This document shows, piece by piece, positions 9,933-33,874 of a stretch of DNA of 64,000 nt. Under the pieces are notes generated by a model. It did no database searches. It saw only the letters and a list, made by a program, of their open reading frames with translations, and was not told the origin of the DNA. Position numbers and translations under genes: made by a program. Positions within the stretch are counted from its first letter, which is position 1, and every line of letters begins with the position of its first letter. The DNA lies in the NCBI RefSeq assembly GCF_019649055.1, contig NW_026570301.1:310001-374000 (forward strand). The letters are read 5' to 3'. The DNA is from Paramacrobiotus metropolitanus (Eukaryota; Tardigrada; Eutardigrada; Parachela; Macrobiotidae).

Positions 9933-11364
9933 TGCCTCTGGGGGGATGCCGAGCTCCTGTGAGGCTGGACACACTCCCGAATCCACGAAAACGACGGTCG
10001 CCGGTGTCTGTGCGTGCTCAAAAACATCAAATTCTCTTATTCCATTTTATCACATCAATTCCATAAAGGCACAATTCCATATAATACGATGTGAATAAAG
10101 AGATCCAATTATAAAAATACTATCATAAAACAGATCAACAGTTAAACAGATCAACGAAAGTATTAATCAAATGTTGACTAGGATCCTCCATTTCTGACTC
10201 ATAAAGGTCACAGGTCCTGTCCACCGTTTTCCGCACTTTGGCCCATTCCGCTCTGTTGAGCAATCCTGCGCATCCGTAATGCGAGTTCATCACAATCCGC
10301 TTGAGAATCAGGTGCGTATCAAGTACGACTTAGGAATACTGCTTCATCTTTGGAATAAGGTGCGTATCAATTGTACGACTTCAAATGAGATCTATAAAGG
10401 TCATGGAGGGACGTCAATGAAGACAAGCGTAGTTCGCTTCCTCCCTGGTAAAGGTCATCCTTTGTTGAAATGATCCGTTGAGATGTGCGATTCATTTTGG
10501 GTTAATAGTCCCAAAGGTCATGCGACTTGAATTCTGATACGGTGACTCTCTTGGGCGGTAATGGTCCCAAAGGTCATCCGACTTCTCTTCAAATTTCCGT
10601 TAAAGGTCATGGAGGGACTTAGCCAATTTTCTGCGGCTTTCAAGCACTTCTTTGCTTGCCTCCCTGGTAAAACTTGCAATTTGACCTTTCCGTCGCACAT
10701 CCAACTTCAACATGCCTCGAGCGGCCAGAGTGCCGGCAAAGTTTACCGTAGCATCTCTGATGGGGCCGGCTAGTTACCGCATTGAGTTTACCCCATGAAA
10801 TTTCCACATTTAGTCTTTTACTCTTGTTCGCCGCTTGTGGCCCAACTTCGGTACGAGTGATCCGGCTTGGTTACCGCTATTTCTCTCGTTGATTTATAAC
10901 ACTGAGTCGCTTGGAGAGATTGCCGGTATGGTTTACCGTAGCAACTCTGATGAGGCCGGCCGACTGCCGCATTAAGTTTACCTCATTAAAGTTCCACCTG
11001 TTGTCTTTCTCTTTCTCGCCGCTTGTGGCCCGCTTTCGTCTTCAAGAGATCCGGCTTGATTACCGTAGTTTCTCTTGCCAATTTATAACACTGAATCGCT
11101 TAAGGAGGAGAGCCGGCTAACTGCCGTAACTACTCCCTTGGGGCCGGCTTTATAGACCGAATCAATTTCAACCCCAATAGATATTCCACATGATTTCTTT
11201 AGGCAATTCTGTGCTATAAACGCTGCAAACAACAAATACACAAATACAGTTAATGTTAACATGTCACATGTCACGCCCTTTATACAACACCATTTTTCAT
11301 CTTTGTGACGTACCGACAAAATGCCGTAGACGTCCTTTTAATAGTGTGATCCTAACGATCAGCA
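9933..11364 (-). other. 3' non-coding region of the element with motif cluster
   Basis: No ORF is supported. Six AAGGTCA-core motifs lie between about 10204 and 10610, all on the plus strand (antisense to the element), two followed by CATGGAGGGAC. The segment 10722-11108 is a diverged tandem repeat described separately. The length and motif density suggest a structured or protein-bound 3' region, but this is inference. Confidence 0.6.
10722..11150. repeat. Diverged tandem repeat of about 190 bp in the element's 3' region
   Basis: Unit 1 runs from about 10722 to 10915 and unit 2 from about 10916 to 11108. Both contain GCCGG, GTTTACCGTAGCA, CTCTGATG, CCGCTTGTGGCCC, GATCCGGCTTG, TTTATAACACTGA and TCGCTT in the same order. 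A partial third start (GAGCCGGCTAACTGCCGTAA) follows at 11108. Function is unknown. Confidence 0.7.
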
Positions 11365-14103
11365 CTATTCCATTTCATTTGAATCGCCCTCACCATCTCT
11401 TGGCGGGCGCTTCTTAGCGCTTTCTGGTTGATTACGATCTGACGTGCGGTCAAGTGGTTCCATGGAGTCAACTTCCATGACCTTTGCCGGGTCAACTTCT
11501 CGTTGGCCACGACCTTTCCCTTGACGACTGCGCTTAACTGCCTCTAGCCGATGGCGCGCATCATTTTCTTCCAGTCGCAGTCTTCGGTTATCAGGGTCAT
11601 CTGCCAGACGGCGTTTTACTTCGGCGAGATTATCCCGTAGCTGTTGGTTTCGTATGCCGCGTCGTCCCATCTGGTTAGGAGCGCGTTCCGGGCGTCGGTC
11701 ACTTTTCTTCACCAGAAATTCGTCAATGTACGTTTCGACCCCGTCCGCTGGTTCAACGTAGTCACTTCCCAGGGAATCTTTGATCTTATTAATCCTTTCT
11801 TCAACTTGAGAGGCATGGCGCTGTGTCAAATTGCCCTTTTCCATTCGTGTCTTGCACTTCTTCAGCGCCTTCCGAGCAGTATGAGCTATGCTGACATGTT
11901 CCATCGGTTCTCCCAATTTAGCAACGTGAGATCGGAAAAGTGGTGGGATATCGTCTCTCATCGTATTTGATACCAACTGATTCTGTGTCTTATAATGTGC
12001 CAGTCGTGCAGCAAAGACCTTTTGCCCCATCCTTTTTGCGGCGTAGTCTTTAGGATCCACTTGTAATCCTATCGATGCTCTTGCTGCAAGCAACTTGAAG
12101 GCTGGGTTTACATATCGCAGTACAAACTGAGCCACATATTCTTGTCGTTCGGGATAGTCTCTATAATAGAACTGTGTCATCCCGACCGGGTCAGTTGTAT
12201 CCAATGGCACATCCAATAAACTCAGATCCACTAGACTGTGTAATCCGTTCCGTCTGATAGGGAGATAACAATCTCGTGCCGAATCGCGGTGGATGAATAA
12301 CCGGCGAAAAATTCCTTGTTCCACTCCCTCTTTTATTTCTTTCGCATAACCCGAGTCAAGTAAGAATTGGCTCAGCTGTCTCAGAATTGTGCCAATTTTG
12401 TTAGCTTCAACCGAATCCGATTCAATTCCAAAGTATCGACAAATTTCGACCGTTTGTTCATCAATATCAGTCGTATTATATTCCATATCAATACATTCAG
12501 GACGTCGGTTATTGAATCTGGAGTTCAGTCGCTGATCAGCTTGGCGACGATTATCCGGTTCACGTTGACCTTCTAGTTCACGTCGCTCTCCTGACTCAGG
12601 CTGCGACGGTTCAACACTCGGTGGTGTAGCCAGTTGAAGGTCACTATCAAGAATTACGTTACGTCGATGCGTCACTTTTTCTTGAGATGCGGTTTCCACA
12701 ACTGAGCTAGTTCCTTCCATCGCGTCGTCTTCTTGAACCGCGTTTACAATTGGAGTCACTACATGGACTGTTGACGCCATTCGCTGATACTTTGGAGGTG
12801 AATCTTCCCTTTCCGCACTTGATGACCTTTTGCTTGCGCCCGAGTCAAAGGTCGCATAAAATGCAGCCCTCTGTTGCCATCTTTTATCACGTGGGTCGGG
12901 TGTTCGATTCCGCGTTTGTTCGCGTCTTTTGTCCCATGACCTTTCAGGTGTTGACATTCTGACGTTGCGATTCCGGAAGGCAACTCCCATCGGCACCTGA
13001 TGCCCTTCCTTTTCAGGCTCTGTACGGAATGTCTCCGCACGCCGTTTCTCTTCACGTTCTCTTGTGGCTGCCAAGATCTTTGCCGTATCGATTTTCCTCT
13101 GAATACTCATTTCTGTTACTTCGTCTCCATGGCGCACCCATCCTCTTCCGCCACGGTAATCTCGGTCGCGGGAGCGTTCGCGTGACCTTTCGCTGTGGTA
13201 ATCACGTGTCCTTTCCCGAGAATGTTGACGTGACCTTTCACTCCGTCGTTCCGAAGTCCGTTCATGTTCGCGTGAATGTCCGCGTGACCTTTCTCTATGC
13301 GGAGGCGATCGAGGTCGAATAAAACCTTCGTCCCGTTTGAAACTTCTGAGTGCCTGGAGCACATCGCTTTCAGTTTGGCGAGATTTACGTAATTCGTTCA
13401 TACGTCTTTCGACTTCCTTCTTAATATACGGCGCTGGGGCAAATCCGTCTTGAAGTCGTTTTTTCTCCCGCAGTAGCGCTTTTAATACCTCGTCTGGCAT
13501 AGCGGCTGGGTCTTTCATTATCGTTTTAATTTGAATAATGAGGGACTGACGGGTAAGCTGCGCTTCCTCTTCGTTTAGGCTGGCTGTGGGTACGGCTGAA
13601 CTCGATGTGCTGGGCAGCGTCTCTCGTGCAGCCTGTTCACTTGCTCTCTTGTTTTCCGCATTAATTTTCGCGCGGATTTCATCTTCCATTTGCTGAACTC
13701 GCATCTTCTCTTGGTCTTCTTCGAACTTCTTCCGATACGCGTCTGTTTGTGGGCATTTCAACGGTTCCAAGGTGCCATCCCAACCAGGTTCGTTGTTCCG
13801 GATCGCTTCCCGGTAGCGATCCTCAAGTAGCATTCGCTCTTCCACTGGGATGCTGCCGTAATTCCTTGCGCTTATCAGGTTGCGGAAGACGTCCAGGTTC
13901 CCTCGTTTGGCTTCCGAGATCCCAACGAGTGAAACAATATGTGGGTCCTCCAGCTTGTGAATGCATGTATAGCACGGGAATTTCTTATCAACCATTTTGT
14001 TATTCCGTGAACAGTCCGGACACTTTGGATTATAGCCCGTAGACCGATCGATATCTGCCGTCGTTCCTGGACGTTTAGAAGTGGCTTGACCTTTTTGTGC
14101 CAT
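11365..14103 (-). CDS. Accessory ORF of the giant retroelement, 912 aa, Zn-ribbon-like and RS-rich
   Basis: Last ORF of the element, from an ATG at 14103. Residues about 27-50 carry a C-P-D-C ... C-Y-T-C pair that could bind zinc. Residues about 265-330 are rich in RERS, RSRE and SREH repeats, resembling an SR-type domain of RNA-binding proteins; many of these codons coincide with the AAAGGTCA motif. A probably folded region follows (about 590-790), containing FLLDSGYAKEIKEGVEQGIF, RRNGLHSLVDLSLLD and a helical RMGQKVFAARLAHY segment. The C-terminus is charged (DPAKVMEVDSMEPLD). There is no signal peptide or transmembrane segment, so it does not look like an envelope protein. I do not recognise the family; a nucleic-acid-binding or virion-like structural role is a guess. 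Confidence 0.7.
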   Translation of the reverse strand: MAQKGQATSKRPGTTADIDRSTGYNPKCPDCSRNNKMVDKKFPCYTCIHKLEDPHIVSLVGISEAKRGNLDVFRNLISARNYGSIPVEERMLLEDRYREAIRNNEPGWDGTLEPLKCPQTDAYRKKFEEDQEKMRVQQMEDEIRAKINAENKRASEQAARETLPSTSSSAVPTASLNEEEAQLTRQSLIIQIKTIMKDPAAMPDEVLKALLREKKRLQDGFAPAPYIKKEVERRMNELRKSRQTESDVLQALRSFKRDEGFIRPRSPPHRERSRGHSREHERTSERRSERSRQHSRERTRDYHSERSRERSRDRDYRGGRGWVRHGDEVTEMSIQRKIDTAKILAATREREEKRRAETFRTEPEKEGHQVPMGVAFRNRNVRMSTPERSWDKRREQTRNRTPDPRDKRWQQRAAFYATFDSGASKRSSSAEREDSPPKYQRMASTVHVVTPIVNAVQEDDAMEGTSSVVETASQEKVTHRRNVILDSDLQLATPPSVEPSQPESGERRELEGQREPDNRRQADQRLNSRFNNRRPECIDMEYNTTDIDEQTVEICRYFGIESDSVEANKIGTILRQLSQFLLDSGYAKEIKEGVEQGIFRRLFIHRDSARDCYLPIRRNGLHSLVDLSLLDVPLDTTDPVGMTQFYYRDYPERQEYVAQFVLRYVNPAFKLLAARASIGLQVDPKDYAAKRMGQKVFAARLAHYKTQNQLVSNTMRDDIPPLFRSHVAKLGEPMEHVSIAHTARKALKKCKTRMEKGNLTQRHASQVEERINKIKDSLGSDYVEPADGVETYIDEFLVKKSDRRPERAPNQMGRRGIRNQQLRDNLAEVKRRLADDPDNRRLRLEENDARHRLEAVKRSRQGKGRGQREVDPAKVMEVDSMEPLDRTSDRNQPESAKKRPPRDGEGDSNEME

Positions 14104-14443
14104 CTTTCCGCTTCAATCTGCAATTATAAAACAATCCGTCATAGTAACCTTTTCCACGTCAATCTTTTCCATTCCTATCCATATCAAGGCTTTTCTATCA
14201 TTTTTACGCCTATTCCGCTGCTGAGCTGAGACTTTCCTAGCTCCTGCTGCCTTTTATATCACTGTAACGTGGTGACCTTTCTCACGTTATCAGCACTCTT
14301 TGACTACTGTGACCTTTTTTATTAGTCCTAGTACTGCTTTCAAGTGACCTTTCGTAACACTTTTCTCTTTCGTTTTAAACTATTTTATGCTTTTTCTGTA
14401 ATATGCAGGGTTCATTACTCGCTGCATATTACACTCGTCCCGT
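14104..14443. other. Spacer between accessory ORFs with three motif copies
   Basis: A 340-bp non-coding gap upstream (in sense) of the 912-aa ORF. It holds three TGACCTTT copies on the plus strand near 14273, 14310 and 14348. It may contain a promoter or splice acceptor for the last ORF; nothing decisive is visible. Confidence 0.4.
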
Positions 14444-14782
14444 TTACTCGGATTCCTTCGCCGGTGGTTTATACGGCTTGAAGTCAATTCGACCATCTGG
14501 ATTAATATGAAGCACTTCGTCTGCGGTCAAGGCTTCGACGGCATTCTTAATCCACTCTTTATCGCTTTCAATATTCAACTCTCCCAATTCATAATTGACG
14601 GCCATGAAGTTCGAAAGGTCATTCCATGACGCTCCATTGGTACCACCGATGGCGTCCAAAGCCACGTTTGTAATGGCTATCTTCCAGGCCTCCAGTTCCA
14701 TTTTCAATCTGGGCGTTCGTTCCTGACCCTGTTTCGGAAGGTAGTAAACAACTTTGTTGTCCTTATTGTATTTACATCCCAA
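14444..14782 (-). CDS. Accessory reading frame, 112 aa, -1 to the preceding frame
   Basis: No ATG near the start; the frame is open from about 14817, where it overlaps the end of the 87-aa frame in the -1 register. The protein reads like genuine coding sequence (KVVYYLPKQGQERTPRL, ASWNDLSNFMAVNYELGEL, EWIKNAVEALTADEVLHI) and may be a small folded alpha/beta domain. It is probably the C-terminal end of the protein starting at 18416, reached by frameshifting, or separated by an indel. No family recognised. Confidence 0.45.
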   Translation of the reverse strand: MGCKYNKDNKVVYYLPKQGQERTPRLKMELEAWKIAITNVALDAIGGTNGASWNDLSNFMAVNYELGELNIESDKEWIKNAVEALTADEVLHINPDGRIDFKPYKPPAKESE

Positions 14783-14805
14783 CTTCCCTTCCTTGTATGC
14801 TCGCT

Positions 14806-18416: not shown

Positions 18417-18467
18417 GGCGATGTGACATGGTTTGATGACAGCTTCCAGACTGATTAACTTTCCGTA

Positions 18468-19349: not shown

Positions 19350-19476
19350 TAACTGTGCTTACCTTCTATAAAAATGAAACAATAAAGGCTAACTTTTTGC
19401 ACAGTGGTAACCTTTTTTTTTGCCTTCCCAACTCCTATTTTTAATCTAATGTGACCCCTTATTTATGTCTATGTGG

Positions 19477-20427
19477 TTATTTGTTCTCGCGTCCTTTAGT
19501 TATCCGATCAAGGAGTTCTTTCTCGGCTGCATCCTCAGGTTCGCCTTTCTGTGTTAGCAGTTCCGTAGGAGTTGGTTTCTTCTTCTTCTGCTTGACCTTT
19601 CGCTCCTTGATTGCTTTCGCTATATCACGGCCCAATTGTTCAGCTTTTGATTTGACCGCCTCTATTTCCTCTTCTCTCTTTCTTATGAGGTCATCCTCAT
19701 TGCCGGTAGCAGTGCGTGGTTCGAAAAAATTCGAATCGCGCTCTGATATCTCAGCGCCAGTTTGCCGTTTCGAAAGGTCACCCTTATCTCCGGTAGCAGT
19801 GCGTGGTTCGAAAAAGGATTGTTGCAAAACCTTTTCGGAAGTACGCTCTGGTACTTTGGAACCTAATTCGGTCTCTTTTTCCAGTGACCTTTCTGCCAAA
19901 TTTCCAGCTTCTGCGTTCAGCTTAATTGTAACTGCCGTCTCGAAGTCCTTATCTTCTTTCTTTTTTCTTCTTCTTTTCTTTGTAGATTTGTCTCTACTTT
20001 TCTTCCCGTTTGTCTGAGCTTCTTCCATTTCAGATAACAGAGGTGGTTCGAAAAAAGGTTCTTTTTGAGGAGTATGCTCTGTGCCCTTATCCACTTTTTC
20101 CATTTCAGGTAGCAGAGGTGGTTCGAAAAATTGATTGGTACCATTTTTCGAAGCATGCTCGGCTTCTTCCGTCTCTTTTTCGTTCAACGTTCGTTGCGAA
20201 TCTTTCTCGTCGGGTAATGGCGGATGCCATGGCTTCAAGCGATCAATGGAAACTACTTTTAGGTCTGCTTCTTTCTTCGGGTTCTGCTCAATGACCTCGG
20301 CTTCGTTTGGTCGCGGGAAACTGAGAATCTTCCAAACTTTATCGTACTTCGATTTAAAGTCCGATTGGTTTTCTTTCTTCCCTTGTTTCGTATCCTTTGG
20401 TAATCGTATCAATACAAAATCTACCAC
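19477..20427 (-). CDS. Integrase C-terminal domain with acidic/basic extension
   Basis: The first 60 residues match the GPY/F-type C-terminal domain of Ty3 integrases: DFVLIRLPKDTKQG, a KYDKVWKILSF core and the hallmark SIDRLKPWHPP. This frame is offset by -1 from the integrase ORF and is open back to about 20475, where an A4 run lies. Beyond the domain comes a unique extension with four FFEP repeats (FFEPPLLPEMEK, FFEPPLLSEMEE, FFEPRTATGDKG, FFEPRTATGNED), a KKRRRKKK patch and a helical C-terminus. The same FEPRSAT peptide occurs in the protease ORF. The break could be programmed frameshifting or an indel. Confidence 0.75.
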   Translation of the reverse strand: MVDFVLIRLPKDTKQGKKENQSDFKSKYDKVWKILSFPRPNEAEVIEQNPKKEADLKVVSIDRLKPWHPPLPDEKDSQRTLNEKETEEAEHASKNGTNQFFEPPLLPEMEKVDKGTEHTPQKEPFFEPPLLSEMEEAQTNGKKSRDKSTKKRRRKKKEDKDFETAVTIKLNAEAGNLAERSLEKETELGSKVPERTSEKVLQQSFFEPRTATGDKGDLSKRQTGAEISERDSNFFEPRTATGNEDDLIRKREEEIEAVKSKAEQLGRDIAKAIKERKVKQKKKKPTPTELLTQKGEPEDAAEKELLDRITKGRENK

Positions 20428-21674
20428 TTTGAAGTTCGGTTCCGATTTCTTCTTATTGTAAATTTCCGCGTTTTCTCATAAGCGTCTTTGATGTTACATC
20501 TCGCCACTTCTTCGGCAAAGGTCAAGTTCTTTTTCATGGTCTCAACCCATTCGTCTGGAGTGCCATAATCATCCGGTATATTCGTTTTTGTGACCACATC
20601 CTCCGGCATTGTCATTTCTCTGCCGTGTAGCATATAGTATGCTGAATATCCTGTTGTGGCGTGCACGACTCTGTTCATCGCCGAAATAACATATGGAAGG
20701 TACTTATTGAACTTTCTTTCGTTTCCCGCTTTCAGGTATTGCGCCAAGCCATCAGCAATCGTCTGCATCTGTCTTTCAACTTGGCCTTGACCTTCTGGAT
20801 GATATGCCGTTCCGAATGTGTGTTTAATCTTAAACACATTGGTGACCTTTGCCAATACTTCAGCTGTAAAGTGTCGTCCGCGATCCGTATGTAGGATGTG
20901 CGGTGCTCCGTGTACCAATATCACGTGCTTTACGAACACTTTAGCGAATTCTTTAGCCGTTGCTGTTTTCATCGGTACCGCGATCACGTATTTCGTCAAC
21001 TGATCGATGAACACCGCTATATACTTATATCCCCGTTTCTTGGTCGGTAACAAAGGTCCTTTCAAGTCAGCGTATACTCGGAAGAACGGATGTCCGACCT
21101 TTATCTCCTGCAGTTTTCCCGGCGGGCATTTTCTGGGTGTTTTGCGGAACTGGCAACCTTGGCACGCAAGTATGTAGTTCTTCACATCTGTACTCATTCT
21201 ATCCCAGTAATATCGTAGTCGGATTGCAGATAATGTCTTTTCGAATCCCAGATGTCCTGCCGCTTTCTCGTCGTGTAATGCGTGGATTATCGCTCTTCGC
21301 ATTGACAACGGTACGACATATGACCTTTCAAGTTTCCCATTCTTATCCTTTACTCGGTACAATATACCGTTCCATAACTGGTAGTGCACTTCGAATTTCG
21401 ATCTTGTTTCCGCGTCTGGTAGATGTTCAGATTCATCTATAATCATTGCCAGATGAGGATCTTTCAATTGTTTGTTTCGCAGCTGCAGATTGGAGTCATC
21501 TTCTTCGTCTTCGTCACCTTGCAGGTTAACGATGCGCACTGTTGCTGTACTGAGTTCGTTCCAATCTCTGATGACCTTGCATCGTGGTAGCGGTTTGTAC
21601 CTCTTTTTCGTCTGTTTTGGGAATCTCAGCAACTTAATCGGACACTCGTTTAACGCTTGTGTAACTTTGTCCAT
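20421..21674 (-). CDS. Ty3-type integrase, catalytic part
   Basis: 417 aa starting at an ATG (21674). The zinc-binding region has HDEKAAGHLGFEKTL followed by CQGCQFRK. The RNase-H-fold core shows D203 in YADLKGPL, D264 in HTDRGRHF and E300 in GQVERQ, with 60 residues between the two Asp and exactly 35 between D264 and E300. The enzyme processes and joins the cDNA ends into the genome. It is in the same reading frame as RT-RNase H upstream, separated by one UGA and one UAG codon, which points to an original pol polyprotein. The frame ends just inside the C-terminal domain, which continues in the -1 frame. Confidence 0.92.
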   Translation of the reverse strand: MDKVTQALNECPIKLLRFPKQTKKRYKPLPRCKVIRDWNELSTATVRIVNLQGDEDEEDDSNLQLRNKQLKDPHLAMIIDESEHLPDAETRSKFEVHYQLWNGILYRVKDKNGKLERSYVVPLSMRRAIIHALHDEKAAGHLGFEKTLSAIRLRYYWDRMSTDVKNYILACQGCQFRKTPRKCPPGKLQEIKVGHPFFRVYADLKGPLLPTKKRGYKYIAVFIDQLTKYVIAVPMKTATAKEFAKVFVKHVILVHGAPHILHTDRGRHFTAEVLAKVTNVFKIKHTFGTAYHPEGQGQVERQMQTIADGLAQYLKAGNERKFNKYLPYVISAMNRVVHATTGYSAYYMLHGREMTMPEDVVTKTNIPDDYGTPDEWVETMKKNLTFAEEVARCNIKDAYEKTRKFTIRRNRNRTSKW

Positions 21675-21692
21675 TTCCCAAAGGTCATCTCC

Positions 21693-22007: not shown

Positions 22008-23567
22008 TCATGATAACGCGTCCGCGTTGTCACAGTACTTTCCAGGTTTATATTCAATTTTGAACTGATGACCTTGTAATGCCATCGCCCATCTTGTCAA
22101 ACGCGGGTTCATTCCAACTTTATTCGTTTGTGACCTCAAAAGGTTGGTCAGTGCCTGATGATCCGTCCTTACGGTGAATTCTGCGTAATCAATGTACGGC
22201 TTGAATTTCCTGACAGCGAACACGACTGCCAGACATTCCCATTCCGTTACGCCGTAATTTTTCTCGGCTCCATGCAGGACGCGGCTCGCATATGCGATTG
22301 GATGTCCATCTTGTGACAGTACGGCTCCAATTCCTTCCTTGCTCGCGTCGCATTCAATGACGGTCGGTTTTGCTGGGTCAAACTTTGCCAGTACTGGACC
22401 TTCACACAACAACTTTTTCAAGCTATTGAACTCTTCCTCAAGTACTGCTGTCCAGTCCTTTTTCACGTGTTTATCTTGTCTCAGCAACTCATACAAGTGG
22501 CAAGTCTTCTGTGCGTATCCCATTATGAACTTGCGATAATAATTCGCCATTCCAAGGAATGACCTTAACTGCCTTTCTGTTTGAGGCCGTTTAAATTCTG
22601 AGACCGCGGTGACCTTTTCCGGATCCATACGAATTCCGTCTTCGCTGAGTATATGACCCAGAAATCCCATTTGTCTCATTCCAAATTCGCACTTGGTTGG
22701 TTTAATCGTGAATCCCGGTTCAACCAGACTCATTAAAACATTTCGCAGATTCTGCATGAAGATCGCCCAAGTTTTTCCGGCGAAGATTACGTCGTCAATG
22801 TACCCGAAAACGCAACCCTTTCTTTTCGCTTTCGAAAGTACTTTATCCATACACAATTGGAATGTTGCTGGTCCGTTGCATACGCCGAATGGCATTCTTT
22901 TAAATCGGTACATTCCATCTTGCGTTACAAAGGTCGTCTTGTTGATTGACGCTGGATCCATTGGGATCTGCCAAAATCCACTTTGTAAGTCCATTTTTCC
23001 GTAATATTTGTTGCCTGCACACGCGTCAAGCAATTCATCTGGGTTCGGTAGCGGATAATTGTTCTTTCTTGTTAACTTGTTGAGCATGATATAGTTGACA
23101 CAAAATCTTGTCCCCATCGTTCCGTCGCCATTTTTCTTTACTGCCAGCACGACTGGAAAACTCCACTCGGCATCTGACGGTTCGATCACATCTTGTGCCA
23201 ACATCTCCTCGATATGCTTCGTTATAAACTCACGGCCTGTCCAACTCGTTCTGGCCGGGTTACACTTAACTGCTTTCGCATCTCCCGTATCAATTACGTG
23301 AGTGACCCCTTTCACATCTCCATACGGTTTCTTTGATGTGGGTAGGACCTTCCAGAATTCCCAGAGCGCGTTATACACGTCGTTTTTCTGCTCTTGGGTA
23401 AGGTCAGGTCCCAATTTCAAGTTTTCGATTATCTTTTTCAGTTCAGCTTTCGTTGTATCGTCCACCTCAGGGTCTTCGAGTACGTTTTTTACTGTCCCTG
23501 CGTTGACCTTTACATTCTCCATATGTTCATACGGCTCCACATAGCCGAGTAGCTGATTTTTCTTCAC
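22008..23567 (-). CDS. Reverse transcriptase and RNase H of the Ty3-type element
   Basis: 519 aa. The RT palm shows the MPFGVCNGPATFQ motif and the catalytic Y256-I-D-D259 box; the usual upstream LDACAGNKYYGKMDLQSGF (motif A, Asp in MDL) is intact. RNase H shows ECDASKEGIGAVLSQDG, the EWECLAVVFAV Glu and TDHQAL. The domain ends NADALS, followed by UGA where most relatives have Arg. The frame overlaps the upstream 290-aa ORF by a few bases in the -1 register; the first AUG is at residue 16 (HMENVK), so either frameshifting or reinitiation would be needed. It copies the element RNA into DNA in the particle. Confidence 0.95.
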   Translation of the reverse strand: MKKNQLLGYVEPYEHMENVKVNAGTVKNVLEDPEVDDTTKAELKKIIENLKLGPDLTQEQKNDVYNALWEFWKVLPTSKKPYGDVKGVTHVIDTGDAKAVKCNPARTSWTGREFITKHIEEMLAQDVIEPSDAEWSFPVVLAVKKNGDGTMGTRFCVNYIMLNKLTRKNNYPLPNPDELLDACAGNKYYGKMDLQSGFWQIPMDPASINKTTFVTQDGMYRFKRMPFGVCNGPATFQLCMDKVLSKAKRKGCVFGYIDDVIFAGKTWAIFMQNLRNVLMSLVEPGFTIKPTKCEFGMRQMGFLGHILSEDGIRMDPEKVTAVSEFKRPQTERQLRSFLGMANYYRKFIMGYAQKTCHLYELLRQDKHVKKDWTAVLEEEFNSLKKLLCEGPVLAKFDPAKPTVIECDASKEGIGAVLSQDGHPIAYASRVLHGAEKNYGVTEWECLAVVFAVRKFKPYIDYAEFTVRTDHQALTNLLRSQTNKVGMNPRLTRWAMALQGHQFKIEYKPGKYCDNADALS

Positions 23568-24436: not shown

Positions 24437-24495
24437 CTGTGCAATGTCGAATGCCGACTCTGAACTTTCTTTCGTTTCGTTCGATCATCCTTCAA

Positions 24496-27400
24496 CTATC
24501 TCAACTGTTCCTCCTTCTCTGTTTCTTTTGCTGTCCCCTTATCAACTTCATCCTGTTGAACTGTTTCGTAACCTTTAGGTCGTTTAGGACCAACAAAGAT
24601 GCAGTTTGCCATCAGTTCTTCCGTGACCCATTCATCATTTGGAATCGTTTCATACATGCACCATGTATCACCGCCTCGTTCGGGGTAGTCCACTCCATCT
24701 GGATCTGGTGCAAAGGTCACCTTTTTCTTTTGCATTAATCCCGGTAACCTTCTTTTCCGGGTAACCTGTAGTTCTCGCATCTCTTTCACATCAAATCTGG
24801 GGATTTCCTCTTCAAATTCATTCCAATATTTTTGGAATACTTCTTCGTTCCCCTCCTTTAACGCGTTGTAATATACTTCAAGTGATTCGTAGACAGGGGT
24901 ACCAAGTCTTGCCGGGAAGATGATCGTTCTCCCTTCACCTTTATACATGTGGTTCACACGGAAGTCAAAGAAGAGGTCAACTCTCGCTTCTTCCCACATT
25001 TCTCCTTCCTCGTTCATCTCTTCTATCTCTCTTTCGAATCTCCTTTCGGTTGCTACCGGATCAAGAGGATCCTGGATTCCTTTCTCGACACGTTGTAACC
25101 AATGGTTTAGCCATCTTCCTCTCCCGATAATGAAGCTCTTCACGCATGACAACCAAGTCCGGTATCTGTTACAGTGATACCGCTCAATGTGTGGCTTCCA
25201 CATTTCGTTTGTCCGCATGATACTTTTTACTTCCTTTTGAACGTGACCTTTAGGATCTGCTATTGCGGCACTACATTTCGGCCATTGTGAAAGGTCATCT
25301 TGGGAGGCATTTTCGCGACATTCAGCACATTCCCATTGTGGTTGTATTCTGCACGGGTCTTCAAAGTAGCCGTGATGACAACTACTAGCTCGTTCATCTG
25401 GGGTTAGTGTCCTTTCACTCGCTCGGGGTTTAACTTCTTCCTGTGCTTTAGTATCTTCCTCACATTCAATTTGGGTCACGCTTTTATCCTCAGAGGATAT
25501 TTCGATAACCTCTGGTTCTTTTTGTGTTCGGTGGCCTCTCAACTGTTCGAGCGCCTTGTTACGGATTTCACTTGTAAACATCTGTTCCTCTTCGGCTATT
25601 CGTTTCAAGACTCGTAACCTTTCACTCTTTTTATCCTTCCATACTTTGGCCGTCTTTACTCCCAGTGCCTCTGGTACTGGGATAGGCTTTGCCCACTCCA
25701 TGCCTGGCACAAGCGATTGTTTCGCCGCAGCTGCCGCTTCTTTCTGTGTGGCAGCTATCTCTTCAAGTGTTGGTGACCTTTGATTTTCGGTAGCAGATCG
25801 TGGTTCGAAAAGGTTCGAAGTGCGCTCTGGTTCCAAGTTCTCAGTCATTGGTGACCTTTCGCCTTCCCGTCCCAGTGCCTCTGGTACTGGGATAACTTTT
25901 TCAACATTTCCATTTTCTGTGGCTCCTTGTTCACAGTCATCTGCGATCATACTTCTCCCGTCCGGGAGAAATATGATCGCCTCATCCATGTCTGGCGCGA
26001 GCGATTCCCTTTTCCTTTCGTTGACTTTTTTGACATTTACGCTTTCGCTTTTCTTCTCCGGTGCCTCTGGTACCGGGATTATCCGTTGGCTGATCTCGTT
26101 CTGCTGCACTCTCGTCATTCCCGGTGCCTCTGATACTGGGATGACCTTTTCTCTTCCCTTTTGTGTCAGCATTGTCCGGTTTAACGTGTTTTCAATCTCC
26201 TGTTGAATCATTTGCAACTGTTGAAATGGTGACAATTCTTTTGGAGCCATCTTTTTCTTTTTGTTTCCCGGTGCCTCTGGTACTGGGATTAGCGTTTTAT
26301 TAACCGTTTGAGCATTTCCCGTCTGTTTTACAAGTTCGGTGACCTTTCCGACTTGAATTTTGGCGACTGGTTTGGGGTCATCTTTTTTTTCTTCTTCCCC
26401 TTCATTATCCATCAGTATAAATTTCTTTTCTAAGAAGTCAAATCCCAGTAACACCTGTGCGTCGTCGCACTTCGGTCGGACGTAGAATGAATGTTCGCTA
26501 GTCTTTTTCCTTAAGGTCACTGGTGCTACGCAGTAGTGTGTCACCATGAATCCTGACGTTCCGCTAATTCCGTTTATTTTCACCAGTCTATCAGGTGGCA
26601 ATGGGAGCATGTGGAGTCCATTCTTTTCGCAAAACGGTTTGCTGATCAGCGACGTCTCAGCGCCGGTGTCCAACATTGCGTTGACCTTTATGTCTCCCAC
26701 TTTCACTTCGTGAGTGTATGCTTCAATTCTCTTGGGCAATTTTCCATTTTGAATCTTCAAGGTATGAATCTTACATTTCACAGGGATGAGCGATACTGGT
26801 CCCGGATCCATATCGGGAAGCACTTGCCCTTTAGCTGGAGTGCTGTGACCTTTCAGTATTTCACTCAACTTGTCAATCCTGTGTGGCACGTCAGTTTGGA
26901 CATCGTAAAATTTTCGCGGCTTTTCTTTATTTGTTTGCTTTTCTACCGTCGTTTTGACACTGGTGACCTTTTCAGCATTCCGCACTTGCTCATTTGCTTT
27001 TGTGCTAGCTGTGTGACCTTTTGTCACTTCGTTTATCGCCTGATGAATCAGCTCCTCTTTACGGTTTTCATTTCGCTTATCTCGCAGCTTCTCAATGACT
27101 TCGCTTGTTATTTTGTCCGCTCGCTTAAGTTCGTCTTCTTCATTATCTTTCGTCTCATCTGATGACCTTTCATATGTAACCATATCGTATCCCTTTTCGG
27201 TCATCCACTGCATCACCTTTGCAGATACTTCATTGTTCGTTTTCGTTGGGTCAATTTGTGAAGACATTCCATCTGTTCGGGCTGGTGACCTGTCGTTAGC
27301 ATCCTTCTGTAGTGCTTGCGATAAGTCCCGTGACCTTTCAACTGTGCTACTCTGTTGCGTTTGCGCCATCTCATTTGACCGTCCTTTTTGTTCATTTTGC

Positions 27401-28584
27401 GCTAAGTCCTGTTGCCTTTCGTTGCGCTTCATGACAAATCCGCCACCTGTCAACTTTTGTATGGGGACTTTTTCTCCATAATTCAGCGGTTTGTCCTTTG
27501 GCGGTGCATTTCGTCGATAATTCGCGTCGGTGAATGCCTTCTTATATTCAGCAGGATCAAATGCTGGGACTGGGTTCGGTGACCTTTGCGCTGGTTTCCC
27601 GGTAACCAACTCTTCTAATCGCTTTCTTTCGCATTGCGTTCGCAACTGTTGCATGTCCCAGTAGTCCTCTTGTGACATTCTCGCTTCCTGCTTTGCTTTC
27701 GGCGTTACAGGTATCCACATCCCGTGATTGCCATTCGGTCTGTAAGCCACTTTTCGCCAGGTTTCCTTCCGTTGCAACGTTACTGCATCGACAAGTGAGT
27801 CATCGGAGTTCTGTTGTGCCAATTCGCTATTCTTTTGCTGCGCTGTTCGCAGTGTCAAGTCTGTTTCTTGACCTTTTAACACGGCGCTTTCACCGTGACC
27901 TTTAGCGTTTGCACTTGCTCCTTGACCTTTCACTTGAACTTTTCCAACAGAAGGTGACCTTTCATCTCTACTAATAACGGTGATATTCTGCTTAATCCAT
28001 TCTTGCCTTGCCAGCTTCTCTTCTTCGTCTTCTGAACAATTCCAAAACTTTGGCTTTGGCTCCCCGTAACAATCGCAACTTGGCTCATTCGCCTTATCGT
28101 TTTCTGCCAAAAATTTTCGGAATTTCGCATGCTGCTCGTTTCCTTCTTGCGCAGTGTCGTTCTGCGGTTTCTGCTGATTCAGCAGCGCCTGTTTAATCTT
28201 TGCGTTCCGTTGTGCGCGTCGTTGCGCTAACACTTCTTCGCTGCAGTACGGTGACCTTTCGTTTAGCTGCACTTTTTGCAGTGTCGCGCTACCGTCACGA
28301 CAATTTCCACTCGCAGTACCATTCTGCGGTGACCCTTGGTCCCGTTGCGCGTTTCCACTCGCAGTACCATTCTGCGGTGACCTTTTATCCACTTGGACGT
28401 TTCCACTCGCAGTACCATTCTGCGGTGACCTTTGATTCTGTAACGGTATCCTTATAACCGTTCTATTTCCTTTTTGCGATGACGGCATCCATATAGCCGT
28501 TTCTCTTTGCTGTGGCGGCATCCATCTAGCCGTTTCCTTTTGCGCTGACGGCATCCATATAGCCGTTGCAGTGGTCACATTCAC
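24496..28584 (-). CDS. Retropepsin-containing polyprotein, 1362 aa
   Basis: The frame is open upstream through the gag end and is entered by a -1 shift at 28686-28692. The N-terminus has an 11-residue repeat (TAIWMPSSQK type, 33-bp DNA period at 28481-28566) and a 16-residue repeat (RSPQNGTASGN, 48-bp period at about 28304-28445). The middle is disordered. An aspartic protease lies near residue 639 (LDTGAETSLISKPF, with LLGFDFLE later as the second conserved block). Then come five IPVPEA-type repeats (about residues 760-975) and FEPRSAT. The C-terminal third has a HHGYF...C-A-E-C Cys/His cluster and a folded region (NRYRTWLSCVKSFIIGRGRW). The protease would mature Gag and Pol. The long extensions are unusual for Ty3 elements. 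Confidence 0.88.
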   Translation of the reverse strand: MNVTTATAIWMPSAQKETARWMPPQQRETAIWMPSSQKGNRTVIRIPLQNQRSPQNGTASGNVQVDKRSPQNGTASGNAQRDQGSPQNGTASGNCRDGSATLQKVQLNERSPYCSEEVLAQRRAQRNAKIKQALLNQQKPQNDTAQEGNEQHAKFRKFLAENDKANEPSCDCYGEPKPKFWNCSEDEEEKLARQEWIKQNITVISRDERSPSVGKVQVKGQGASANAKGHGESAVLKGQETDLTLRTAQQKNSELAQQNSDDSLVDAVTLQRKETWRKVAYRPNGNHGMWIPVTPKAKQEARMSQEDYWDMQQLRTQCERKRLEELVTGKPAQRSPNPVPAFDPAEYKKAFTDANYRRNAPPKDKPLNYGEKVPIQKLTGGGFVMKRNERQQDLAQNEQKGRSNEMAQTQQSSTVERSRDLSQALQKDANDRSPARTDGMSSQIDPTKTNNEVSAKVMQWMTEKGYDMVTYERSSDETKDNEEDELKRADKITSEVIEKLRDKRNENRKEELIHQAINEVTKGHTASTKANEQVRNAEKVTSVKTTVEKQTNKEKPRKFYDVQTDVPHRIDKLSEILKGHSTPAKGQVLPDMDPGPVSLIPVKCKIHTLKIQNGKLPKRIEAYTHEVKVGDIKVNAMLDTGAETSLISKPFCEKNGLHMLPLPPDRLVKINGISGTSGFMVTHYCVAPVTLRKKTSEHSFYVRPKCDDAQVLLGFDFLEKKFILMDNEGEEEKKDDPKPVAKIQVGKVTELVKQTGNAQTVNKTLIPVPEAPGNKKKKMAPKELSPFQQLQMIQQEIENTLNRTMLTQKGREKVIPVSEAPGMTRVQQNEISQRIIPVPEAPEKKSESVNVKKVNERKRESLAPDMDEAIIFLPDGRSMIADDCEQGATENGNVEKVIPVPEALGREGERSPMTENLEPERTSNLFEPRSATENQRSPTLEEIAATQKEAAAAAKQSLVPGMEWAKPIPVPEALGVKTAKVWKDKKSERLRVLKRIAEEEQMFTSEIRNKALEQLRGHRTQKEPEVIEISSEDKSVTQIECEEDTKAQEEVKPRASERTLTPDERASSCHHGYFEDPCRIQPQWECAECRENASQDDLSQWPKCSAAIADPKGHVQKEVKSIMRTNEMWKPHIERYHCNRYRTWLSCVKSFIIGRGRWLNHWLQRVEKGIQDPLDPVATERRFEREIEEMNEEGEMWEEARVDLFFDFRVNHMYKGEGRTIIFPARLGTPVYESLEVYYNALKEGNEEVFQKYWNEFEEEIPRFDVKEMRELQVTRKRRLPGLMQKKKVTFAPDPDGVDYPERGGDTWCMYETIPNDEWVTEELMANCIFVGPKRPKGYETVQQDEVDKGTAKETEKEEQLR

Positions 28585-28649
28585 TGCAGTACCATTCTGC
28601 AGTGGTGACCTTTCCGTTCCCTCTTTATCCGGTGGTTTAGGGTCGGGTC

Positions 28650-28692
28650 GATCAGTAGGCTCACCGGTGCCTACTGATCTTGCCCGTTTCCC
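28650..28692 (-). promoter_or_regulatory. -1 ribosomal frameshift signal at the gag-pro junction
   Basis: In the sense strand, GGGAAAC (28686-28692) sits in the gag frame as G-GGA-AAC, the X-XXY-YYZ register. A 6-nt spacer follows, then GATCAGTAGGC, an 8-nt loop and GCCTACTGATC: a perfect 11-bp stem (28650-28679). The gag stop codon UAG (28671-28673) is inside the stem. The -1 frame runs open from here into the protease ORF. Heptamer, spacing and stem agree with known retroviral frameshift sites. Confidence 0.9.
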
Positions 28693-31600
28693 TGAACCGG
28701 CGCCCCTCCTTGTTGTACGCCTTGCACATTTCCTTGCACATTTCCTTGCACTTGCTCGTTTACTGGGCCCCCTCCGTTATTCTGGCCACCACCCTGTTGG
28801 TAGTTTCCGCCTCCATTTCCGCCGCCTCTATAATTTCCGCGGCCATAGCCTCTGTTCCTTCCTCTGAAGCCGCCGCGGCCGTAGCCACCACGGCCGAAGC
28901 CGCCGTTCTGGCCACCGCCATTTCCATTTCCATAGTTCCCGTTACCTTGCTGATTCTGAAAGTTCGCTTTCACCTGGTACCATTGCGTGATCAGGTCGTA
29001 TCCATTTGCGACCGCTTGGCGCCAACCGCCAAGCCCGCGTAATCGTTGCCACTCGTTAAAGGCAAACAGGTTCGGGTTCTGTTCTGGTGGTGTATTGGCG
29101 AATTTGCACCCCTGTGTCTGATGGTTGCCATACATACAGTACTGGCACATCTGCACATTGTTCGCCACCCATCCGTCTATCATCTGGAACTTGAACTCTG
29201 TTCGTGACCCTTGATTCTGCTGAAAGTTATTTTGATTTTCTCTGTTTGGCTGGAAGTTGCCTTGACCTTGACCTTGACCTTGATTCTGGAAGTTTCCTTG
29301 ACCTCTGTTCCAATTTCCATTTCCGTATCCGTTTCCGCCAAAATTTCCTTGTTGCGGTGCCCCTATGTTCGGGGGAGGCATATTCTGAGGTACAAGTGGG
29401 GCTATGTTCTGGGGGGCCGCATTCTGGGCTATTGGCCTCACTTGGGCCGCTGCCTGTATTGCAGCCACCATCGCATAAGTCATCGGTTGTCCTGACTGGC
29501 TGTCGATAAAGGTCACTCTTTCGGTGACCTCTCTGACTGGAGTTTCCACACGGTATTCCACTGGCAGTTGGACTGGTGCAGCCGCCATCCTCTGTTGCGG
29601 TACATTTTCAACTTGGCCTTGCCGGATGGTCACGTATTCCTGATTACGTTGACCTTTCGGCGCCTTGTACTTTTCTTCGCCCGTTGCCCAGTGTCGGAAG
29701 AAGTCCTTCGCGTCAGTTGGCGTTCTGCACTTTTGTGTACGCAAAGCCTTGTAGAGTTCATTGTCCACTCTGCATCCTTCGATTAAGAAGCCCACTGCCT
29801 GTTTTTCCGTAATGATCCGTTTTGCTTTGAACCGCATCATTGCCTGATAGTACTGATCAAGTGATTCTTTCCCGAGTTCAAATTTTCTTGCGTAGGCCTC
29901 TCGTAAGCCTAAGACTTCTTCATCTCGGTCACCGTATTCATCTTTGAATTTCTCCATCCACTCCGTTACCGAATATTCAATTCCGTCTTTTGATGCGATA
30001 TCCTTTTCTCCTTCAAACCAGGTTTTAGCGGGACCTTTCAGTGCGCTGGCTATCTCGATCATGATTTGATCGTCGGTGAGCTGGTAGGTTTTCTGCGTTT
30101 CTTTTACCAATCTTGTCCAGCCATTCACGGTGTCGCGACTGCCGTCAAAGGTCACGAGTGTGTTTTTTCGAGCCATCGAGTTAAGCGCTTTTGTCAATTG
30201 CACCGCTGTATTTTCTGCTCTCTGGTCATCCTCCTCTTCGCTACTTTCATCATCGTTTTGATTTCGTTTCGCCTTTCCATAACGGGATTTCCTTGGACGC
30301 TTCTGCCGGCTGGAGGGTCTGTCCCGTCGTCCTTCGTCAATGAACACATTTGTTTCAATGTGCGGAGGAAATTGTGAAGGGTCACCTCGACTCATATGCG
30401 GGTAACTTTCCGAAGGTGGCTCTTTGTCTTCTTTGTCCTTTTCACCTTCCCGTTCCGTTTTCACGCTTCCTTTACCGGTACCAGTTCGTAATGGCATTTC
30501 AAAGTGAAAGCTTTTGCCTGTGCCCGTTTCGTGCGCCTTGCTGTAACCGGGCGGCGGTGATTCCACTGTTGTTGCCCTGACTCCATATTGTAACAGCTGT
30601 TCATCTTTATGTTTGTTCGACATGTTGAGCGCCTTATTTTCGTCTTCGTGGCGTCGGACTTTCAACTGGAATTCCTCTTTTTCCATTTTCAAATTCTGAT
30701 TCTCTTCGTTGACCTTTAGCATGTGCTGATGGAGTTGGAAGGTCTTCTCCTGGATGACCTTTTCAGTGTCATTCTCCACCCTTTTAATGTGTTCCGCCAA
30801 CTGGGTCACATCTCTTTCCAGTTTAGTGTATTCATCTGCTGCTACTCTTAGCTGGATTTTTGTTTGGGTGACCTCGTCCTCTCTCGTCATTGCCGTTTGG
30901 GTCATATCAATCAACTCCGTGTTGAGTCTGATGATGTCCTGTGTCTTCTGGTGTACCGTCTGTTGCCATTCTTTATCTTTCAGTTCAAGTGCCGTAACCT
31001 TTACGTCCAAGAGGTGTGCTTCATGCTCCCACCTCATGCCCTGTTCGGCAATTGTCTTAGCGGTTCCTTTCAACTCGTTGATCTCTTCGGTGACCTTTCT
31101 GTTATCCTCTTTCAACACCGTGTTCTCTTCTTGCTGTTCCTTTGCCACCCTGGCGGCTTCATTGGCCCTTCTCTGGTGATCATATGATTCCTTCTGGAGG
31201 ATCCCGATATTCTCATCACGCAGCTTCAGGTCATTCCTGAGCTTAAACACTTCGGTAGTGTTTGTCAGTAGTCGCTGGGTAGCCTCGGCGAGTTTAGTCG
31301 CATAGTCATCTCTCTTGGCTTCTGCTTCAGTGACCTTTTGTTTCAGGGAGTCGCATTCGTCCTTCAATTCTGCCAAGTGCCGTGACCTTTCCGCTGTTTC
31401 CTCGGACATACTCTCGTTAAGGTCACTGACTGCAAGATGACCTTCCATTTCTCTGTCATCTACCATTTTCAGGTACTCCTCAGCGAGTTCTTTTTGGCGC
31501 TCGTATTTGATCTTCCATTCGTCCGCCGTGTTCTCCAAATAAGCCTGTTGTTGCTCCAATTCATAAATACGAGCATTGAGGGATCCCATCTGGTTTTGGT

Positions 31601-31724
31601 ATTCCTGTCTCTTTTTCATCACCTGACCTTCCTTCACTTCGAGTTCTTCTTCCAATTCCTTTACACGTCTTTTCAGAGTTGACGTCGGACTGTTCGGTGA
31701 TGGCGGTCGTACGTTGATGACCTT
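28671..31724 (-). CDS. Gag polyprotein of the giant element
   Basis: The frame opens at 31724, right after a UGA that separates it from an in-frame 130-aa upstream ORF; no AUG is at the very start (the first is in EGQVMKKRQ). About residues 1-330 (counted from 31655) form a long coiled coil. About 505-680 resembles the retrotransposon Gag capsid: FDGSRDTVNGWTRLVKE, PAKTWFEGE, WMEKFKDEYGD, SLDQYYQAMMRFKAKRI. A CCHC knuckle (C837-x2-C-x4-H-x4-C850) follows a Gln/Asn-rich stretch. The C-terminus is an RGG/GY/QN-rich tail (FGRGGYGRGGFRGRNRGYGR), like condensate-forming RNA-binding proteins. It would assemble the particle and bind element RNA. Near 994-1018 aa it is about twice the usual Ty3 Gag length. 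Confidence 0.9.
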   Translation of the reverse strand, partial: KVINVRPPSPNSPTSTLKRRVKELEEELEVKEGQVMKKRQEYQNQMGSLNARIYELEQQQAYLENTADEWKIKYERQKELAEEYLKMVDDREMEGHLAVSDLNESMSEETAERSRHLAELKDECDSLKQKVTEAEAKRDDYATKLAEATQRLLTNTTEVFKLRNDLKLRDENIGILQKESYDHQRRANEAARVAKEQQEENTVLKEDNRKVTEEINELKGTAKTIAEQGMRWEHEAHLLDVKVTALELKDKEWQQTVHQKTQDIIRLNTELIDMTQTAMTREDEVTQTKIQLRVAADEYTKLERDVTQLAEHIKRVENDTEKVIQEKTFQLHQHMLKVNEENQNLKMEKEEFQLKVRRHEDENKALNMSNKHKDEQLLQYGVRATTVESPPPGYSKAHETGTGKSFHFEMPLRTGTGKGSVKTEREGEKDKEDKEPPSESYPHMSRGDPSQFPPHIETNVFIDEGRRDRPSSRQKRPRKSRYGKAKRNQNDDESSEEEDDQRAENTAVQLTKALNSMARKNTLVTFDGSRDTVNGWTRLVKETQKTYQLTDDQIMIEIASALKGPAKTWFEGEKDIASKDGIEYSVTEWMEKFKDEYGDRDEEVLGLREAYARKFELGKESLDQYYQAMMRFKAKRIITEKQAVGFLIEGCRVDNELYKALRTQKCRTPTDAKDFFRHWATGEEKYKAPKGQRNQEYVTIRQGQVENVPQQRMAAAPVQLPVEYRVETPVREVTERVTFIDSQSGQPMTYAMVAAIQAAAQVRPIAQNAAPQNIAPLVPQNMPPPNIGAPQQGNFGGNGYGNGNWNRGQGNFQNQGQGQGQGNFQPNRENQNNFQQNQGSRTEFKFQMIDGWVANNVQMCQYCMYGNHQTQGCKFANTPPEQNPNLFAFNEWQRLRGLGGWRQAVANGYDLITQWYQVKANFQNQQGNGNYGNGNGGGQNGGFGRGGYGRGGFRGRNRGYGRGNYRGGGNGGGNYQQGGGQNNGGGPVNEQVQGNVQGNVQGVQQGGAPVQGNGQDQ

Positions 31725-32117: not shown

Positions 32118-32175
32118 CGGTTGACTTCCCGCCGCAGATGCGGGAGTATCCTTTCCGTCACCGCTGGAGCTCTCT

Positions 32176-32394
32176 TCATTCTGTATAGCTCCGAGCGCCG
32201 CTTGGTATTATGCTGTCACTGCCTTTGCTGTCCTTTCTTGCAAAGGTCACAGCCGCTCGGGTCTGTCTATCATGTCCGACTGGACGCGCGAGCGACTTGC
32301 ATTCCTTCTTATAAGGATCAACTGTGCCTTGTTGTGATCCTCGGGAGCTCCTGCTTCCCTGACTGCTGGTGGATGTCAGTTCCTCTTTGTCCAT
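32176..32394 (-). CDS. Short first ORF of the element, 72 aa
   Basis: ATG at 32394 (MDKEELTSTSSQGSRSSRG). Ser/Arg/Lys-rich and disordered. It ends at 32176 and overlaps, in another frame, the open upstream part of the 130-aa ORF; a +1 shift would join them. It could be a regulatory upstream ORF or the true N-terminus of Gag. Confidence 0.35.
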   Translation of the reverse strand: MDKEELTSTSSQGSRSSRGSQQGTVDPYKKECKSLARPVGHDRQTRAAVTFARKDSKGSDSIIPSGARSYTE

Positions 32395-32469
32395 GTTGAT
32401 CGGATAACTTGGACGCTCCTGCCAATTGTTCTCACACAAACGTTATTGTATGGTTTATTCAATTATCCT

Positions 32470-32988
32470 AAAGGTCACTTTATACTTCCGAAATTTTTCT
32501 AAGTCCTTGTTAAAGGTCACTTTTCGGTTGAAAAATTTCGATTAAGTCCCGTGTAAAGGTCACTTTTTCGTTAAAAAGTTCGAGAGATTTGCCCTAAAGG
32601 TCACTTTTTGGACAAAACTTTCGAAACCGCTTTTACAGTTCAGAATTCGTTAGCGAATGAAATCCTACAGCTGCTGATATCGCTGTACTACTAATCAACT
32701 CAATTTCGACTTCGTTAAAGGTCACTGTTGGTTGCTTTCAGATCATAAAGGTCACTTAAATCAGTTTATCTCCTCAATTCCGACTTTTTAGTAAAGGTCA
32801 CTTTTCGAAGTAAAAGATCACGTTCTAATCTTAAAGGTCACTTTCAAGCTCAGTTCAACTCAAAAGGTCACTTTCTAACTCAATTTCTGTTAAAAGGTCA
32901 CTTTCCAGCTCAATTTCAAGTTAAGGGTCGCTTTCCAGCTCAATTCGATCAAAGGTCACTTTTCCTTTGTCTGAACTCAAAAAGTCAC
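32470..32988 (+). repeat. Array of AAAGGTCA motifs with regular spacing
   Basis: Eleven exact AAAGGTCA copies start at 32470, 32512, 32555, 32596, 32717, 32747, 32793, 32833, 32863, 32893 and 32951, plus variants near 32923 and 32981. Nearly all are followed by CTTT. The first four are 41-43 bp apart; those from 32833 on lie in a degenerate 30-bp tandem unit (AAAGGTCACTTTC, then a CTCAATTT-type tail). Spacings near three and four helical turns would put the sites on one DNA face. All are on the plus strand, antisense to the element. Confidence 0.85.
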
Positions 32989-33605
32989 TTTCCGTCTCAC
33001 TTATCTCATCTCAAATCAAATTTCCCATTACCGCTCAAGTTCAGCGGAAAATCCCCATTCGGGTTGTTTACTTCGATCCTATTGGTCAGCTAACTCGAAT
33101 TATTCAGTTCAAATTTCAACCAATCACAGCTCAGATAACCGACCAATCACGTTGCTCCTCTAAAAATCTATATCTGCCTGACGTCACGGTCAACGGCCAG
33201 ACATGCACGCCGTGTGCAAAACTCCGCCTACTTTTACGCTCAGCTCAGTACGGGCCAATAGAATTTGCCAAATTTACCAACTAGCTAATCCCGTAATTAA
33301 TAACGGTTTTTCTACCTGTTAACCGTCCGTCCGTTCTACGTCCGTCCGTTCCACGGGGAGAATGATCCAGATGATCCAATTCTTCTTCCAACTCCGCTCC
33401 CGCGTCGCCGCTGTTCCGTAGCGTGCCTCGCGCTATTAGTCGGTTACTGTGCCGGCTGTGCCGTAGCAACAGTAATAGTGCTCTACTGCCAATTTGGAGG
33501 AGTCTGATCTGGCAAATCCGTCCGCCCCTTTCGGCGCTTCGTCGCTTGTGACCCACGGCTTAGGATTCGCTGAATCCTTGCCGAGTAGCAGTGACACCAG
33601 TGTAG

Positions 33606-33699
33606 GTCTTCGCTGAAGACTCTACACCGAGGAACACTGCCGCCTGAACTCTTGAACTCTTGCTCAGTCCTTGCAACAGTACAGGTCTTCGCTGAAGAC
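33606..33699. repeat. Two identical hairpin-forming repeats in the leader
   Basis: GTCTTCGCTGAAGAC occurs at 33606-33620 and 33685-33699, 79 bp apart, each within a longer similar stretch (CTCTACACCGA or CTCTGCACCGA follows). Each can fold into a 6-bp stem with a 3-nt loop. Their position between the primer binding site and Gag fits dimerisation or packaging stem-loops; this is inference. Confidence 0.5.
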
Positions 33700-33863
33700 T
33701 CTGCACCGAAAACAAGGCTGGAAATCCGATGGGAAACTTGCACCGCCTGTGGTGTTGCGCTTTGCTGTTGGACAGACCTGTGCCTTACTGGTCGGGTTTC
33801 ACATCAAATAACAGGCCAACTTTGCCTGACACAAATCAATTCGAATCAGAGAACCGCTGTCGG

Positions 33864-33874
33864 CTCTGCTACCA
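33864..33874 (-). other. Primer binding site (initiator tRNA-Met type)
   Basis: Sense TGGTAGCAGAG directly follows the LTR end. It is complementary to the CTCTGCTACCA 3' end known for animal initiator tRNA-Met. The match stops after 11 bases (next bases CCGAC). Confidence 0.75.

Follow-up and report, generated by a model that had tools for sequence, protein, structure and literature searches.

VANDAL21 of Arabidopsis is a DNA transposon, the gypsy insulator is a cluster of sites for the host factor Su(Hw) within a long terminal repeat (LTR) element, and DNA uptake sequences and Chi sites are short words scattered under selection through coding sequence, where they serve bacterial genomes. In the consulted part of its description, VANDAL21 is very densely supplied with one short motif, which other elements rarely carry, and this density was reported to matter for the localization of VANC21; the 9-base motif is mainly non-coding, has one orientation, often forms tandem repeats and has a known, element-encoded reader (PMC5735166). 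The Burro elements of planarians, giant gypsy-like LTR retrotransposons, are described in the consulted part of the source as many-copy elements with additional domains and an internal region that can reach 25 kb (PMC6431247). The octamer AAAGGTCA is itself known as the NBRE, the NR4A monomer site, which is bound by one receptor molecule and, in the part of the source consulted, is considered in its role as response element for target genes of the host (PMC4777543). Here, the same octamer is described from the tardigrade Paramacrobiotus metropolitanus, in an LTR retrotransposon of 24.6 kb that occupies positions 9585-34222, LTRs included, of the 64,000 nucleotides analysed (the window; contig NW_026570301.1, positions 310,001 to 374,000) and is coded on the minus strand.

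When this element was compared with the systems above, VANDAL21 offered the nearest known logic as regards the part of its description consulted, and both have one short motif at very high density. Unlike VANDAL21, the tardigrade element is an LTR retrotransposon, 84 of its 113 motifs lie in open reading frames (ORFs), in both orientations and mostly not in tandem, and an element-encoded reader is only a candidate. With the gypsy insulator it has in common that an LTR element carries sites, here candidate ones, for a host factor, although the insulator is a single local cluster and the octamer is nearly element-wide; with DNA uptake sequences and Chi sites it shares a selected word across coding sequence, but those serve bacterial genomes. 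Relative to the NBRE the octamer is identical, and the difference lies in about a hundred selected copies running through coding sequence. Burro is the nearest known element type, sharing the gypsy type, the giant internal region, the invertebrate host and the high copy number, whereas the accessory domains described there differ and a dispersed octamer is not mentioned in the part consulted (PMC6431247). In the literature searched, neither a comparable word running through an LTR element nor about a hundred selected NBRE copies in the coding sequence of an element was found.

The core AAGGTCA was present 113 times in the internal region (35 on the plus and 78 on the minus strand), close to the roughly 110 of an earlier note on this DNA (about 80 TGACCTT and 35 AAGGTCA on the plus strand). 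The core was preceded by A in 96 of the 113 cases, giving 96 complete AAAGGTCA octamers (31 plus and 65 minus), when only 1.2 would be expected in the element from a first-order Markov model. With a z of about 88, the octamer ranked first among the 149 octamers with six or more occurrences, the best non-overlapping word reaching about 11. The remaining 39,362 bp of the window contained only 5 AAGGTCA, matching the five or so, near chance, of the earlier note, which had also rightly placed copies in coding and non-coding parts alike. Ten ORFs, each of at least 130 amino acids, held 84 motifs and 29 lay outside them. Within the ORFs the sense frames were used 24, 20 and 25 times and two antisense frames 5 and 10 times, the third antisense frame, in which a motif would give an in-frame TGA stop, being empty. 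Permutation of synonymous codons (2,000 rounds, ten ORFs pooled) yielded a mean of 9.1 sense motifs (maximum 18) against 69 observed and of 1.1 antisense motifs (maximum 5) against 15 observed, and shuffling the order of the codons yielded means of 2.7 (maximum 9) and 0.6 (maximum 5). Therefore, the excess stands when codons are preserved, as the simulated counts were far below those observed. Gaps of less than 20 bp between sites were scarce (3 against 9.8 expected), a pattern as if every site required room.

The 170-Mb genome (533 contigs) was searched for other copies, and eight of these, compared in twenty pieces, carried the motif throughout, mostly at matching positions. Counts from LTR to LTR were made in pieces, two partly fetched copies being excluded, and gave 113 internal sites for the window and 113, 109, 103, 108, 101 and 99 for the other six copies. 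This corresponds to 4.35-5.73 sites per kb in the seven internal regions, compared to 0.16 per kb in the outer flanks at 30 LTR loci, where the 42.0 kb of inner sequence held 275 sites and the 43.6 kb of outer sequence 7. Outside the LTRs, the pieces of the six copies held 4 further sites, all at C59. These counts cover one element family and its flanks in one species.

The fraction of window sites that were intact in each of the eight copies, which share ancestry and hence are not independent trials, was 81, 83, 83, 84, 85, 86, 87 and 97%, compared to 41-53% of control 7-mers. In a five-copy alignment, 59 of 96 sites were intact in every copy, compared to 16% of the control 7-mers. Identity at third codon positions was 93-100% within the motif and 74-81% elsewhere, and, where the amino acid was kept, an unchanged codon was seen in 1203 out of 1250 cases within motifs, when 76% would be expected from the same codons elsewhere; CAA ran slightly the opposite way (37/42 identical at motifs versus 91% elsewhere). 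The conserved unit comprised the 8 bases of AAAGGTCA (positions -1 to +6), at 0.94-0.98 per base compared to 0.78-0.91 in the surroundings. Both orientations were conserved: sense sites were intact in 57/61 non-coding and 374/452 coding comparisons and antisense sites in 116/135 and 88/101, with control values of 0.50 and 0.44. The leader stretch (32118-33000) had 64 of 79 site comparisons intact, against 0.284 for control 7-mers. A subfamily with the members L001, L005 and L007 shares about 71% DNA identity with the window in the 3' region; among these members 16/21, 20/23 and 19/23 sites were intact (controls 39-49%), and 5/6, 5/6 and 4/6 of the sites in the 3' cluster of the window were intact in them (controls 17-21%). 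Some turnover was also detected, with 6-16 aligned motif sites per copy (n = 8) having no motif in the window. Selection thus appears to preserve the octamer in copies other than that of the window, and it is probably read by a protein of some kind.

As for the form in which it is read, enrichment in the ORFs over codon-order shuffles was nearly equal on the two strands (25.2-fold sense, 25.0-fold antisense), and therefore the sense excess in the ORFs requires no strand preference. This similarity, together with conservation in both orientations, favours double-stranded DNA, and we infer that the octamer is probably read in that form. The pattern would be best explained if AAAGGTCA were a double-stranded recognition site, written by selection about a hundred times over the element body and maintained at a cost in the choice of codons and probably also of amino acids. 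Its reader would be a protein that binds DNA sequence-specifically, most likely an NR4A-type orphan nuclear receptor of the host or a protein sharing that specificity. The sites would be occupied one monomer each along the inserted element, and such dense occupancy would keep the 24-kb body accessible and active in transcription, or would mark it against silencing. As the LTRs and the adjoining 1.2 kb or so are empty, the role would be one of the element body and not that of a classical LTR enhancer or promoter-enhancer. We put at roughly 60% the probability that the octamer is a DNA address code: present on both strands and in most internal parts in about a hundred copies, spread over five frames (three sense, two antisense), kept by selection that takes precedence over the choice of codons and probably of amino acids, and read double-stranded by a nuclear-receptor-type or element-encoded protein, so as to set either the state of the chromatin or the identity of the element DNA. 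For the narrower proposal, that densely spaced protein binding holds the body in an open state or serves to mark it, we hold the balance to be even.

Several observations weigh against this explanation. The LTRs and about 1.2 kb beside them, where sites for transcription factors would be expected, are free of the motif, and none was found in the LTR zone at any of 30 LTR loci (two of them those of the window itself). When the null was built from motif-free codons, enrichment in the ORFs was less equal, 36.8-fold sense versus 29.3-fold antisense. Outside the ORFs the sites lean to antisense, 20 versus 9 (69.8-fold versus 21.6-fold), a lean that stems from the antisense orientation of the leader and 3' clusters and is inflated by the repeats of the leader. 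A pyrimidine follows AAGGTCA in 91 of 113 cases, a requirement absent from the published octamer; the pyrimidine class after the core was kept in 735/740 comparisons and that of a nearby base in 725/738, i.e. no better. No 10-bp phasing of the sites was found when it was looked for in the element, and the motif array of two short copies was barely protected, with 16/22 sites intact against 67% of the controls.

If the motifs were a side effect of codon bias or of repeats in the proteins (KVT, ERS and KGQ peptides), the copies that lie within short peptide repeats such as ERS or in DNA repeats of the leader would be accounted for, but this origin has a negligible probability given the five frames in use, the 29 sites outside ORFs, the shuffles far below the observed counts and the much lower conservation of the same codons outside motifs. 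A signal in RNA is more plausible, though still rather improbable: Gag or another protein would bind AAAGGUCA in the genomic RNA, for example through many packaging contacts over 24 kb. The sense orientation of 78 of the 113 sites and the single zinc knuckle of the Gag-like ORF agree with such a role, and packaging had been proposed in the earlier note. Its single-stranded RNA version is disfavoured, as the sense excess in the ORFs is about that expected from codon usage (25.2- and 25.0-fold; 36.8- and 29.3-fold with motif-free codons), antisense sites in the ORFs show about the same enrichment as sense sites and equal conservation, and both the leader cluster and the 3' cluster run antisense. 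If, instead, the antisense octamers of the untranslated regions paired with the sense octamers of the body to fold the long RNA, the perfect complementarity of the two orientations and the clustering of antisense sites in the leader and 3' region would follow; nevertheless, changes at motif sites that would keep a G-U pair were no commoner than those that would break it (A>G or C>T, 46; G>A or T>C, 48; transversions, 61; eight related copies pooled), and we regard this pairing as highly improbable.

Two kinds of protein could read the octamer as DNA, host nuclear receptors or a protein of the element, as the earlier note, which had recognized the NBRE, had proposed; the receptor reading fits in that the octamer equals the published NBRE, with A before the core in 96/113 sites, and that the host has a domain of the appropriate type. 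The host genome gave 63 matches to a nuclear-receptor zinc-finger model, exon pieces included, and three NR4A-like exons on contig C45 (at 296815, 297502 and 298350) share 86, 73 and 67% identity with human NR4A2, where the third match covers the stretch behind the zinc fingers. By sequence, the host encodes an NR4A-like DNA-binding domain, presumably orthologous to NR4A, and a host NR4A-type receptor is our tentative choice of reader. Less likely, but a serious competitor, is a sequence-specific DNA-binding accessory protein with which the element would mark its own DNA, either in VANC-like anti-silencing or in compaction or import of cDNA. Two large accessory ORFs have no Pfam matches, and the relatives listed for them, with about 8,000 candidates scored per search, were all from P. 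metropolitanus (11/11 for the 912-amino-acid and 10/10 for the 1119-amino-acid protein). The CX2C-X12-CX2C cysteines of the former are present in 5 of the 5 relatives that reach that part, out of 11, one of them being 43% identical overall; in the family of the latter, one of 10 members (P0136) matches linker histone with an E value of 2.4e-4, just under the Pfam cut-off. In addition, the motif was seen in the element and its subfamily and at background level in the flanks read, a pattern that a self-mark predicts. Yet a short copy on contig C136 lacks most of the accessory region and still carries 99 sites in 17.3 kb, so an element-encoded reader would have to act in trans. The exact identity with a known host-receptor site would also have to be a coincidence, and the structure predictions for the two accessory proteins (mean predicted local distance difference test scores, pLDDT, of 47.7 and 36.0) are too poor to judge.

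Further features of the accessory region were noted. The linker-histone match of P0136 spans residues 1094-1151, and the equivalent stretch of the window ORF begins near 15884. The C-terminal part of the 1119-amino-acid protein appears to continue in other frames within 14104-15056, where the sequence after the ORF is similar, to about 14.4 kb, to the C-terminus of its relatives, so that the gene looks broken in the window copy, whereas relatives such as P0138 read on; the motif at 14615, at least one of the 29 counted outside ORFs, sits in this frame-broken, coding-like stretch. Four relatives of the accessory proteins bear the public names fray2-like kinase (P0124), RNA-binding protein 25-like (P0126), myosin-2 heavy chain-like (P0139) and caldesmon-like (P0131), and look like misnamed retroelement proteins. 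The short copies L056-L058 (contigs C136 and C16), without most of the accessory region, have in its place a motif-dense stretch that is in part similar to the 3' end of the accessory ORF.

The coordinates of the features are collected in Table 1. By its LTR pair, its target-site duplication (GTTT at both outer ends), the order of its Pfam domains on the minus strand (protease, reverse transcriptase [RT]-RNase H, integrase), which fits the Ty3/gypsy type, and the similarity of its RT, the element is a giant Ty3/gypsy-type LTR retrotransposon. The best relatives of the RT outside the species are about 40% identical, and a P. metropolitanus protein matches at 96% across 24% of the query. The family is large, with at least 83 RT matches (1,773 candidates) and at least 40 LTR matches (268 candidates), both lower bounds that include only scored candidates. 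In the Gag-like ORF, which gave no Pfam match above the cut-off, the knuckle was recognized by its pattern and the coiled-coil and capsid-like stretches were judged by eye. Directly before the 3' LTR, the sense strand has a run of C (9933-9952) and not the usual polypurine tract. At 10440-10760 and in L001, L005 and L007, a module present twice in the 3' region consists of the octamer, GGAGGGAC, a spacer and CTCCCT and, in many copies, a second octamer. Around the element, six ORFs match leucine-rich repeats (1329-2345, 3425-4381, 34476-35450, 43249-44256, 53544-54497 and 57442-58587) and may form a local gene cluster, only 1329-2345 exceeding the Pfam cut-off.

Table 1. Positions in the window of the parts of the retrotransposon and of its motif-rich and motif-free zones.
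Feature	Position	Strand	Description
3' LTR	9585..9932	-	348 bp, motif-free; exact repeat of 33875-34222
Internal region	9933..33874	both strands	113 AAGGTCA (35 plus, 78 minus), 4.72 per kb
Gap adjoining 3' LTR	9933..10203		271 bp without motif
3' untranslated cluster	10204..10609	+	6 motifs, antisense to transcript, largely kept in the ~71%-identical subfamily
Accessory ORF, 912 amino acids	11365..14103	-	N-terminal CX2C-X12-CX2C, ERS repeats; 9 motifs; no Pfam match
Accessory ORF, 1119 amino acids	15057..18416	-	13 sense motifs; no Pfam match
Integrase	20421..21674	-	PF17921 1e-20, PF00665 2e-12; 5 motifs
Reverse transcriptase and RNase H	22008..23567	-	PF00078 6e-25, PF17917 3e-34; 5 motifs
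Retroviral-type aspartyl protease ORF	24496..28584	-	PF13975 2e-08; 22 motifs
Gag-like ORF	28671..31655	-	One CCHC zinc knuckle (CX2CX4HX4C); 14 motifs
5' leader cluster	32243..32958	+	12 motifs, all antisense to transcript, partly within 30- and 41-43-bp repeats
Gap between 5' LTR and leader cluster	32959..33874		916 bp without motif
5' LTR	33875..34222	-	348 bp, motif-free; identical to 9585..9932

The element shows, in unusually clean form, how the coding sequence of a mobile element can bear an imposed word, which here extends over nearly the whole length and is blind to both frame and strand. If a host receptor reads the octamer, a giant element would be wired along its length to a host signalling pathway; if a protein of the element does so, it would be an animal counterpart to the anti-silencing systems of plants. 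With its defined 8-bp site, the element also opens the continued expression of very long retroelements in a small animal genome to direct test.

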